From the NCBI RefSeq assembly GCF_026162425.1, contig NZ_JAOBQJ010000002.1:620001-684000 (forward strand): a stretch of 64,000 nucleotides of DNA, read 5' to 3'. Source of the stretch: Flexivirga meconopsidis (lineage in GTDB: Bacteria; Actinomycetota; Actinomycetes; Actinomycetales; Dermatophilaceae). Under the pieces are notes generated by a model. That model searched no databases. It had not been told where the DNA came from and saw only the letters and a list, made by a program, of their open reading frames with translations. Position numbers and translations under genes: made by a program. Position 1 is the first letter of the stretch. Every line of letters begins with the position of its first letter. Below, in pieces: positions 57,922 through 60,718 of the stretch.

Positions 57922-57995
57922 GGTGGGTGTAGCTCAGCTGGTAGAGCGTCGCGTTGTGGTCGCGGATGTCGCGGGTTCAAGCCCCGTCACTCACC
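57922..57995 (+). tRNA. tRNA-His (GTG anticodon)
   Basis: GTGGGTG (57923-57929) pairs with CACTCAC (57988-57994), with an extra G at 57922 opposite C 57995 as required for His tRNA. The anticodon loop is TTGTGGT. CCA is not encoded. Confidence 0.93.
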
Positions 57996-58003
57996 CCGGG
58001 AAG

Positions 58004-58045: not shown

Positions 58046-58942
58046 TCAGTCCGCCCGCAGCTCCACCAGCGCGAACCCGACCGCCTGCGTCGGCAGCGGC
58101 GCGCGACAGGTGAGCCTGGCCTGCGGCAGCAGGTGCGCCCGCAGCTCGACCTCGATCCGCGCCGGCAGCGGAGGCGCGCAGCGCAAGCTGACCCGCCACT
58201 GCTCCCCGGACCGCACCGCTTCTTCCAGCCGTATGGCGTGCCGGCCCGCGGGACCGAAGCGACGTAGCACCTCGATCACCGCGACCTGGGCGGCCGGGGC
58301 CAGGTCGGCATAGCCGCGCAGGTGATCGGCGGACACCTGACCGCGCAACAGCTCCCGGATGACCTCGACCGCCTGGGCCGGCTCGACCTCGCCGAAGTAG
58401 ACACCGGACGGCAGCGCGAGCAGATTGGCGGCGAAGCGGTCGCCGCCGACATGGCTGCATTCCCAGGCGTTCTCGGGCCACACCTGGCTGAGCGCGCGAG
58501 CGACCGGACGTCCCCGGATCGCGCAGCAGGCGTCGTGCACGCCGTGCGTGCAGACGAGGAAGACCGGCGGCAGATCGCTGCGGCCGGGCGCCTCGGTCGC
58601 CGGCACAATACGCAGCAGGTCCTGGTCCGTGCTCCACGTACCCCATTGCTGCCGGTGGTTGCCGTCCGCGTCATACCGCAGCACTGCCCACCGCAACGGG
58701 CCTTCGGCAACACGGCGGCCATAGCGCCGAATCAGCAACACCCGAGCGCCGATTCGCTGCGCGGCGTGTCTGACCGGTTGGACGATCTCCGGGTCGATCG
58801 GGAGCTCGGCGAAGCCGCCGAACGGCCACGGCCCGTGGTGCTCGATCAGCACCCAGCCGCGCGCCGGAGCCGCCGTGCCGGCCTGGTCGTCACCTCGCCG
58901 GCGCGCCTGCACAGCACACCTGAAATCGCCGGTCTGCGTCAC
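58046..58942 (-). CDS. Sucrase/ferredoxin-like family protein
   Basis: 298 residues. It has the thioredoxin-like [2Fe-2S] family motif VCTHGVHDACCAIRGRPVARAL followed by WECSHVGGDRFAANLLALPSG, with Cys and His residues able to hold an Fe-S cluster. The N-terminal GWVLIEHHGPWP is also typical. The family name is historical and does not imply sucrase activity. GTG 58942 overlaps the stop of the JmjC-type gene (GTGA), so the two are translated together; electron supply to that oxygenase is a hypothesis. Confidence 0.83.
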   Translation of the reverse strand: MTQTGDFRCAVQARRRGDDQAGTAAPARGWVLIEHHGPWPFGGFAELPIDPEIVQPVRHAAQRIGARVLLIRRYGRRVAEGPLRWAVLRYDADGNHRQQWGTWSTDQDLLRIVPATEAPGRSDLPPVFLVCTHGVHDACCAIRGRPVARALSQVWPENAWECSHVGGDRFAANLLALPSGVYFGEVEPAQAVEVIRELLRGQVSADHLRGYADLAPAAQVAVIEVLRRFGPAGRHAIRLEEAVRSGEQWRVSLRCAPPLPARIEVELRAHLLPQARLTCRAPLPTQAVGFALVELRAD

Positions 58943-60144
58943 GGCGCAGCGGGTATGGCGATGCCGGCGCGCAGCAGGCGCCGCGCGAACTCCAGACCGA
59001 GCTCGTCGGCGCTGAAAGCCCCTCCCCCGAGCAGCAATTCGGCTGCCGGCAGGTCATCGGTCGGCAGGTCCAGCCACCCGACCCGCGTGTGCAACCGGGT
59101 GCCGTCCAGCCGGGGCGCAAGGTTGCCGCGCAGGCGCAAGGTCGTCCGTGGGCTCAACGCGTCGAGCGTGGCGAGCTGCTGCAACGGACCGAGCGCGGCG
59201 GGGCGTGCCTGGGTGCCGCGGGTGCGCCGGAAGGCCGGCTCCGGGTCGGCCTGCTCGAGCGCCGCCGCGAGCGCCCGGCGGACCTCGTCGACGACGTCTG
59301 CCGTGCCGTCCACGCCCAGCGGCAGGGAGGCCCGCTGCTCGGGGTCCTGCCGCATCCTGGCCAGCGCGTCCTGCATGAGTTGTTCGGCCACGGCGTATCG
59401 GGTCCAGTTGTGGATGCCGAGGGTGAGGTGGATCGACACCGCTCCCTGTGCCTGCGCGGCGTGCAGCCAGCCGCGCGGCAGGTAAAGGCAGTCGCCGGGC
59501 TGCAGCACGGTGTCGATGACGGGCGGTCGCGTCGCGGCTTCGGCGACGGCGTCTCGGCGGTCGGTCCACGGCTGGTCGCGCAGCGGGTCCGGGTGCACCG
59601 GCTCGTGGATGATCCAGCGCTTGCTGCCCTCGATCTGCAGCACGAAGACGTCGTGCACGTCGTAGTGGTCGTCGAAACCGCGGTTCTGTGGCGGAGTGAC
59701 GTAGGCGTTCGCCTGCACCGGGTGGCCGAGCTCGGTGCCGAGCCGGGCAGTGAAGTCGGTGATCGGCGACCAGGTGCGGTGCAATGCCTGCAGCACGATG
59801 GTCGCGCCGTCGGCGAACTGCCGCCATACGGCGGTGTCGTCGAGCTGGTCGGCGATCGTCGCGCCGACACCGGCGCCGGAGGTGAAGCTGCGCTCGGCCA
59901 GCGTCGACCCGTCCTTGGCCATCCGCAGGAACGGCGTGCGCAGCCCCCGTTCGGAGAGCAACTCGTCGACGGCCGCGGCCGAGAAGAGATCGCGGTAGTC
60001 GTCGGCGTCACGGGTGAGCAGCGCACGCGCTGCCCAATGCTCGTCGGCGAAGGTCGGCAGAGGTATGTCGAACAAGCGAGCCGACGCGACCCCGGCGCCT
60101 GCAGAGGCACCGGGGTCGCGAAGGTCAGAGCGAGAAATGCTCAA
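58939..60144 (-). CDS. JmjC-domain/cupin 2-oxoglutarate oxygenase (ribosomal-oxygenase-like)
   Basis: 401 residues. The iron site is H160-x-D162 (FDDHYDVHDVFVLQIEGSKRW) with the distal histidine in LPRGWLHAAQ, as in bacterial YcfD/ROXA-type hydroxylases; a helical dimerisation region and winged-helix-like C-terminus follow. Such enzymes hydroxylate residues in proteins such as ribosomal protein L16. The start codon is unusual: TTG 60144, overlapping the previous stop as TTGA; no ATG or GTG fits. The substrate is unknown. Confidence 0.83.
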   Translation of the reverse strand: MSISRSDLRDPGASAGAGVASARLFDIPLPTFADEHWAARALLTRDADDYRDLFSAAAVDELLSERGLRTPFLRMAKDGSTLAERSFTSGAGVGATIADQLDDTAVWRQFADGATIVLQALHRTWSPITDFTARLGTELGHPVQANAYVTPPQNRGFDDHYDVHDVFVLQIEGSKRWIIHEPVHPDPLRDQPWTDRRDAVAEAATRPPVIDTVLQPGDCLYLPRGWLHAAQAQGAVSIHLTLGIHNWTRYAVAEQLMQDALARMRQDPEQRASLPLGVDGTADVVDEVRRALAAALEQADPEPAFRRTRGTQARPAALGPLQQLATLDALSPRTTLRLRGNLAPRLDGTRLHTRVGWLDLPTDDLPAAELLLGGGAFSADELGLEFARRLLRAGIAIPAAP

Positions 60145-60572
60145 TTGTTGAAGTCCGAGCCGCCGCCGGCGCCACCGTCGGCACCGCCATCGGCGCCGCC
60201 GTCCTGGCCGGTCGAACCGGCAGCTCCACCGTCGGCCGGGCCCTCACCGGAGCCACCGCCCGCGCCACCGTCGGCGCCGCCGTCCTGGCCGGTCGAACCG
60301 GCAGCTCCGCCGTCGGCGGGTCCTTCGGCACCGCTGTCGGCGCCACCGTCGGCACCACCGTCTCCGCCGGCGCCACCAGCACCGCCGGCCGCGCCGCCAT
60401 CGGCACCGCCGTCCTGCACACCCTGCTGGCCCGAGGCTCCGCCGTCAGCGGGACCCTCCGAGCCACCGAAGCCACCGGAACCGCCGGTGTTGCTGTCCTG
60501 GCCGCCGGAGAGGTTGTCGTTACCCCCGGTCGAACCTTCCTGCCCGAACGAGTCCTGCGTGGAATCAGTCAT
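60141..60572 (-). CDS. Gly/Asp/Ala-rich low-complexity protein
   Basis: 143 residues, over half Gly, Asp and Ala, with no hydrophobic core, signal peptide or membrane segment. EGPADGGAAGSTGQDGG occurs twice, and shorter DGGADGGA blocks recur. It begins MTDSTQDSFGQEGSTGGNDN. AGGAGGA stands right before ATG 60572, so it is expressed. It is the first gene of a coupled trio with the JmjC-type oxygenase and the ferredoxin-like protein. Probably intrinsically disordered; function unknown. It could be the oxygenase's substrate or only a neighbour. Confidence 0.75.
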   Translation of the reverse strand: MTDSTQDSFGQEGSTGGNDNLSGGQDSNTGGSGGFGGSEGPADGGASGQQGVQDGGADGGAAGGAGGAGGDGGADGGADSGAEGPADGGAAGSTGQDGGADGGAGGGSGEGPADGGAAGSTGQDGGADGGADGGAGGGSDFNN

Positions 60573-60718
60573 GCGTCCTCCTGCGAATCTCGTGGTCCAT
60601 CAGGGACCTGTTGGGTGCACTGCGGGCTGTCCACCCGCGGGGGCGCGGCCGATGCCGACGCCACCAACGTGTCTACCCCATCCGCGCCACATCCAAAAGG
60701 GAGCGGGTCCACTCGATT

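Follow-up and report, generated by a model that had tools for sequence, protein, structure and literature searches.

What is the substrate of a bacterial JmjC 2-oxoglutarate oxygenase whose gene lies, with overlaps on both sides, between the genes for an Asp-rich repeat protein and a ferredoxin-like protein? The question is raised by a locus in the actinobacterium Flexivirga meconopsidis (contig NZ_JAOBQJ010000002.1, positions 620,001 to 684,000; this whole stretch of 64,000 nucleotides is referred to as the window), the genome of which comprises 4.28 Mb in 10 contigs. The initial annotation, made from the sequence alone, had described three translationally coupled minus-strand genes, and all three open reading frames (ORFs) are indeed in place, the repeat and JmjC genes overlapping at TTGA and the JmjC and ferredoxin genes at GTGA. 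Its reading of the second and third products as a JmjC oxygenase and a thioredoxin-like Fe-S family partner agrees with the Pfam matches to JmjC_2 (PF08007, E = 1e-27) and Suc_Fer-like (PF06999, E = 1.3e-19). The repeat protein matches no family in Pfam or NCBIfam, which rules out RTX or another known repeat family. We conclude that the gene context strongly supports the repeat protein as the substrate of the oxygenase, which is very likely its role, and we lean towards a self-contained module resembling those of ribosomally synthesized and post-translationally modified peptides (RiPPs), in which the oxygenase would oxidize Asp residues of its repeat partner with the assistance of the ferredoxin.

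The initial annotation had named a lack of conservation of the trio in related genomes as grounds for rejecting it. This did not turn out to be so: in relatives the repeat and JmjC genes were found together across the phylum, often with the ferredoxin gene adjoining. An upstream ORF was counted as a putative precursor if it carried at least 4 DGGA-like motifs or if Asp made up at least 18% of its final 75 residues, a definition fixed after the first loci had been seen. Among the JmjC loci of named actinobacterial genomes, which are the best 80 of 112 relatives found by peptide patterns derived from the query and thus favour close relatives, such an ORF precedes the JmjC gene at 78 of 80, the remaining two being contig edges, and the full trio is present at 76. 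Among 410 other gene starts within these loci, only 3 qualified by the same definition. The corresponding counts were 86 of 100 loci in the bacterial family (86 of 97 excluding contig edges) and 49 of 61 in the phylum (49 of 59). When the phylum loci were restricted to those with an A1 score of at least 180 and at least 250 nt of upstream sequence, 47 of 49 had a precursor by this definition; of the remaining two, L209 has a clear precursor by eye. The ferredoxin gene adjoins at 77 of 80 named-genome, 45 of 100 family and 44 of 61 phylum loci. These samples share some genomes: L022 and L109 have identical precursors, as do L004 and L032, and L001, L002 and L182 are the window itself. The commonest spacing between the repeat and JmjC genes is a 4-nt overlap (74 of 212 precursor-bearing loci, window excluded), and by eye a purine-rich site resembling a Shine-Dalgarno sequence lies upstream of most homologues of the repeat gene.

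The two genes also co-occur at the level of whole genomes. The JmjC protein was detected in 98 of 149 family genomes (E <= 1e-10) and the repeat gene in 50 (E <= 0.001), 49 of which were JmjC-positive; that is, the repeat gene is present in 49 of 98 JmjC-positive versus 1 of 51 JmjC-negative genomes (Fisher p = 1e-10). The single exception, G001, is a borderline match with two internal stops, and a few of the 49 matches, located elsewhere in the genome (e.g., G060 and G100), are probably due to chance. Two genomes of the same genus have neither the JmjC nor the repeat gene at these limits and carry only a distant relative of the ferredoxin.

To the proposal that the repeat protein is the oxygenase substrate, this co-occurrence adds good support, as does a parallel divergence of enzymes and repeat cores. 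In a profile search, 57 of 396 Actinomycetota genomes gave a JmjC match (E <= 1e-30), and the ORFs upstream of the phylum loci are either of the GPADGG type or of a second type, exemplified by MDDSPGTLSDEEIETVWKRTGSALAAADPQDADGTDGDATDSSDGDARDADGQDA (L205; "DGDATD" cores), the core type tracking the divergence of the enzyme. Sequences of the second type have a leader-like motif, approximately L-[STD]-D-[ED]-[DE]-[IVM]-x-T, near the N-terminus, followed by Asp-rich repeats; the motif was recognized by a regular expression in 28 of 34 unique sequences and by eye in the remaining six. The GPADGG-type precursors of L187-L194 likewise begin with D-D-D-[IM]-x-T. Unusual cores, each after a D-rich leader-like start, were seen in L211 (SADGTDQGV..GTYGPRDA repeats), L223 (GDAAGDGAGDA-like repeats) and L232 (PTEDDENLDAPGEHSQDTGDE repeats). 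Nine phylum loci have A1 scores below 180: at L235 a precursor is present; the other eight have neither a precursor nor an adjoining ferredoxin gene, and we interpret them as paralogues. In two low-scoring paralogues, L233 and L239, the upstream ORFs end in ...GRSDGND, a possible Asp-containing precursor type.

As in RiPP systems, a short gene-encoded precursor lies beside a modifying enzyme, and JmjC enzymes that modify RiPP precursors have been described in biphenomycin-type pathways (BipG, PbsQ; PMC12707348, PMC12257519). These pathways resemble the present gene set in encoding a JmjC or cupin-like enzyme with a ribosomal precursor. They differ from it in that their enzymes modify ornithine within a small macrocycle, alongside genes for a multinuclear non-haem iron-dependent oxidative enzyme (MNIO), a B12-dependent radical S-adenosylmethionine enzyme and a protease, whereas here an Asp-rich repeat core is accompanied by the JmjC gene alone and, often, a ferredoxin gene. 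These antibiotic pathways, the multiple units with conserved spacing and the leader/core layout of the distant members could together suggest a multicore precursor that, once modified, would be processed by housekeeping proteases to release small peptides for secretion, such as an antibiotic, signal or metallophore. However, gene clustering of 181 loci revealed, among the clusters listed, no recurrent protease, transporter, regulator or other partner gene at a fixed place, as judged with gene calls from a crude method based on length and GC content at third codon positions, by which one large opposite-strand cluster resembles a shadow frame of the JmjC gene. We regard such a peptide product as unlikely. 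A larger biosynthetic cluster is ruled out by the same result and, since dedicated proteases or exporters (common but not obligatory in RiPP systems) do not recur, we claim that the gene set works like a RiPP system but do not claim membership of that class.

The oxygenase itself is catalytically complete. The metal triad H160, D162 and H228, together with K175, is invariant in 29 of 29 aligned sequences and aligns with the metal ligands and the 2-oxoglutarate lysine of NO66, which we take to be residues 340, 342 and 405 and residue 355, respectively, in agreement with the chain count. In Foldseek searches with the AlphaFold2 (AF2) model (mean predicted local distance difference test score, pLDDT, 88.3), NO66 ranked first over the whole length (E = 5.8e-25, template modelling score 0.62), followed by MINA53 and YcfD. 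Thus, the enzyme could be a ribosomal oxygenase acting on a ribosomal protein, like NO66 (RIOX1), MINA53 (RIOX2) and YcfD/RoxA, with the repeat protein as a co-transcribed accessory or regulator; NO66 and MINA53 are the closest solved structures, and the whole-length fold, the JmjC_2 domain, the HxD...H triad with the 2-oxoglutarate lysine and a C-terminal winged helix are common to all. This explanation is nevertheless improbable. The JmjC gene is tightly linked to an Asp-rich repeat gene, the window partner has neither His nor Arg, and the presence of the enzyme is patchy, the family and phylum counts given above and the two same-genus genomes without both genes being subject to the limits used. 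Furthermore, in simulations the substrate residue is most stably hydrogen-bonded to Ser421 in NO66 and to Ser257 in MINA53 (PMC9994133). Such a Ser, which contacts the substrate His, belongs to the His hydroxylases only; at the position of NO66 Ser421 the present family has Gly243, invariant in 29 of 29 sequences. Thus, from the alignment, the enzyme is equipped for catalysis yet unlike the His hydroxylases at this position.

In the AF2 model, the C-terminal part of the oxygenase consists of strands followed by helices in a winged-helix-like arrangement. RiPP recognition element (RRE)-like folds fused to PF08007 occur in fish and algae, with the closest bacterial homologues (~30% identity) in RiPP-like contexts, as stated in the available part of PMC12710340. 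The present precursor, the ferredoxin and the substrate residue are not described in that part. Since a Pfam scan of the 29 JmjC proteins gave no match to PqqD or RRE families, the topology and this precedent are what make the winged helix a candidate RRE-like domain.

The ferredoxin-like protein carries the motif C131-X8-C140-X23-H164-x-G-G-D168, and C131, H133, C139, C140, C162, H164 and D168 are kept across a sixteen-sequence alignment. The best Foldseek matches of its AF2 model are the thioredoxin-like [2Fe-2S] ferredoxins of Aquifex and Azotobacter (FeSI), with weak E values of 0.007-0.05. The motif of Apd1/Aim32 is C-X8-C-X24-75-H-X-G-G-H (PMC11138216). The proteins share the C-X8-C and H-x-G-G elements and, by those weak matches, the thioredoxin-like ferredoxin fold; the Apd1/Aim32 motif as such is absent, because HxGGD takes the place of HxGGH (16 of 16 aligned sequences), and Cys139 and Cys162 are additional invariant residues. 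Given this similarity to the Apd1/Aim32 motif, though with HxGGD at its end, binding of a [2Fe-2S] cluster is likely.

Another possibility is that oxygenation of the repeats has a sensory purpose, hydroxylation of Asp at many sites reporting on O2, iron or 2-oxoglutarate and hence on metabolic state, much as with FIH, which acts on ankyrin repeat substrates. The enzyme type and the repeat substrate do resemble FIH and its repeat domains, and FIH, another JmjC enzyme, oxidizes Asn, Asp and His (PMC9994133). However, no regulator or other conserved neighbour accompanies the set and, by eye (no motif program was used), no shared operator is evident in the upstream sequences of the homologues. We consider this sensor role very unlikely. 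A promoter scan found nothing.

The repeat protein of the window is built of EGPADGGA...DGGADGG-type units and contains no His, Arg, Lys or Cys, so hydroxylation of His, Arg or Lys is ruled out in this protein. Its earlier description as a low-complexity Gly/Asp/Ala protein with internal repeats is borne out by tandem units of 81 nt (2 copies, 60166-60324) and 42 nt (3.1 copies, 60190-60318). In homologues, the unit is ~23 aa long (EGPADGGAAGTPGVHDGGADGGA); because several Asp and Gly positions are set by the unit pattern itself, the informative positions are the free ones, such as position 15, where H accounts for 77%, Q for 18% and S for 3% of 244 units. From 203 precursors with an acceptable start (starts were trimmed automatically, incorrectly in a few cases such as L127), those shorter than 40 aa or with unknown residues were excluded, leaving 194 unique sequences with a median of 96.5 aa, 18 Asp and a net charge of -20. 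D, G and A alone are present in 194 of 194; His occurs in 141, Arg in 99, Lys in 32 and Cys in 1. In Flexivirga L004 and L032, the precursor is apparently frameshifted, with the repeats split over two frames, by mutation or sequencing error.

Repeat units within the same gene differ mostly at synonymous sites (proportion of synonymous differences, pS, 0.364; nonsynonymous, pN, 0.031; pN/pS 0.086; 285 pairs from 59 loci), with pN below pS in 58 of 59 loci; of 95 pairs with the same amino-acid sequence, 89 are distinct at the DNA level. Likewise, the first 64 codons of the window gene show 8 synonymous and 2 nonsynonymous differences from those of its homologue L003 in the same genus. Because it is conserved across genera and its repeats differ mostly synonymously, the repeat protein is more than chance GC-rich sequence and is under purifying selection. 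The idea that the ORF is a functionless low-complexity by-product of GC-rich repeats, to which its composition and lack of a family match might point, is therefore practically dismissed by the pN/pS values and by the place and coupling conserved across the phylum.

The RiPP-like module that we favour would operate as follows. The repeat protein would be made in step with the oxygenase, as a dedicated precursor, and the NO66-fold, 2-oxoglutarate- and Fe(II)-dependent enzyme would work along the repeats, oxidizing many Asp residues; that Asp is the modified residue seems slightly more probable than that it is not. In the distant members, the N-terminal leader motif would probably be held by the C-terminal winged helix of the oxygenase. 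The most likely product would be beta-hydroxyaspartate, yielding a heavily modified polyanionic polypeptide. The thioredoxin-like protein, a putative [2Fe-2S] carrier, would most likely donate the electrons needed to maintain the active-site iron as Fe(II), or to restore it to that state, through repeated turnovers, although for a redox role as such the balance is even. Since the set is not accompanied by a protease, exporter or regulator, an intracellular product is favoured over a secreted peptide, perhaps in the form of a metal-binding polymer. Beta-hydroxyaspartate is a good metal ligand, and metal binding is thus the foremost candidate function.

Several observations weigh against this reading. 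Universality of Asp is not fully independent evidence, being partly built in, because the class is recognized by its Asp-rich composition. The D-[ED]-D-I leader motif is absent from the window precursor. The adjacent ferredoxin gene is absent at 41 of 82 family loci with GPADGGA-type repeats; for the initial suggestion that an Fe-S partner keeps the iron reduced, this leaves a possible role. Several family genomes that lack an adjacent ferredoxin gene have their best ferredoxin match ~11-47 kb away from the JmjC gene (e.g., G121, G146 and G083). Moreover, eleven non-edge family loci lack a precursor as defined here. At four of them (L123, L135, L142 and L148) the upstream ORF is acidic and non-repetitive, and at L155, L157, L164 and L176 nothing upstream resembles a precursor; of the others, L175 has the leader motif, L131 has just 262 nt of upstream sequence with a partial repeat tail, and L181 is a remote paralogue (score 78). 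The four loci with acidic ORFs belong to one genus, have a JmjC gene without an adjacent ferredoxin and share an ORF end like GRGPTIEPGA, and may represent a diverged or decayed precursor. Finally, the modification itself is a prediction, and the sequence does not fix its chemistry, which could be hydroxylation, crosslinking, desaturation or cleavage. Overall, the initial annotation is partly upheld, and the Asp target and the leader/core layout of distant members go beyond it.

Of the named relatives found, Flexivirga endophytica is the nearest, with 73% identity across the best-matching JmjC segment. The window JmjC protein is ~65-73% identical to many in Flexivirga, Arthrobacter, Kocuria and Streptomyces and 54-57% identical to many in its own family; the gene set has therefore probably moved between lineages. 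A mobile element or phage gene is ruled out: there is no phage match and no relative on a viral contig, none of 108 plasmid records covers 80% of the query in one place, and the plasmid matches are remote paralogues. One of these, a JmjC/cupin protein of 34% identity, is encoded on the Streptomyces clavuligerus plasmid pF1D18A (L246:3670-5065), where a 48-aa ORF just upstream, MDDKKTSLEPDEIEVIPPVSTPDFVIADNDPSDPPIAIADPDPFDPVI, has a similar leader-like LEPDEIEVI and an Asp-containing tail, possibly a second RiPP-like family. The E. coli plasmid pHUSEC41-3 (L244, 7.9 kb) carries a cupin/JmjC gene with a product 23% identical to the query; in small mobilizable plasmids of this kind, hypothetical, ABC transporter and cupin/JmjC genes stand in a row that resembles a small peptide-production locus. 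On the Pseudanabaena plasmid pPg_03 (L245), a cupin/JmjC gene (29% identity) is near a gene for a LanM lanthipeptide synthetase.

The features of the locus are collected in the table below. A tRNA-His gene is also found near the trio of Flexivirga L032; in the stretch examined, any tRNA was seen in 3 of 80 named-genome loci.

Table. Coordinates, within the window, of the three genes and associated features
Feature	Coordinates	Strand	Basis
Repeat protein (putative precursor/substrate), 143 aa, ATG start	60141-60572	minus	ORF reading; homologues directly upstream of JmjC genes
Shine-Dalgarno sequence AGGAGGA of repeat gene	60576-60582 (TCCTCCT on plus strand)	minus	Sequence reading
Tandem-repeat core region of repeat gene	60159-60413	minus	Repeat analysis
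JmjC (NO66-like) 2-oxoglutarate oxygenase, 401 aa, TTG start	58939-60144	minus	PF08007; alignment; AF2 model; Foldseek
JmjC_2 domain, residues 142-248	59401-59721	minus	Pfam
C-terminal winged-helix region, residues 335-398, candidate RRE-like leader-binding domain	58951-59142	minus	AF2 secondary structure
Suc_Fer-like thioredoxin-fold ferredoxin protein, 298 aa, GTG start	58046-58942	minus	PF06999; alignment; AF2 model; Foldseek
tRNA-His, just past ferredoxin gene	57923-57997

That JmjC enzymes take part in RiPP pathways is already known, and PF08007 proteins have been mentioned in RiPP-like settings. In our literature search, which mostly covered papers outside subscription, so that a description may be in print, we found none of the Asp-rich repeat precursor or of its pairing with a ferredoxin; a search with the motif strings returned no matches, and in the portions of the literature available we met no ferredoxin partner for a 2-oxoglutarate oxygenase. 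A paper by Xia et al. (2025, Journal of the American Chemical Society) reportedly deals, judging by its title, with macrocyclization by a 2-oxoglutarate dioxygenase in RiPPs and could describe a related enzyme.

If the favoured reading is true, actinobacteria would possess a widespread chromosomal protein-modification system with a substrate gene beside each enzyme, a repeated target rich in Asp and, for a 2-oxoglutarate oxygenase, a ferredoxin as partner. A bolder extension, which we put forward as rather doubtful, is that the phylum harbours a class of genetically encoded poly-(beta-hydroxyaspartate) proteins, in which the JmjC/ferredoxin pair would convert most Asp residues of a disordered repeat precursor to form an intracellular metal-chelating polymer, and that the NO66-type ribosomal oxygenases of eukaryotes would be relatives of such bacterial peptide-modifying enzymes. 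The locus also provides a bacterial relative of human NO66 with a substrate suggested by its context, which bears on the origin of the ribosomal oxygenases.

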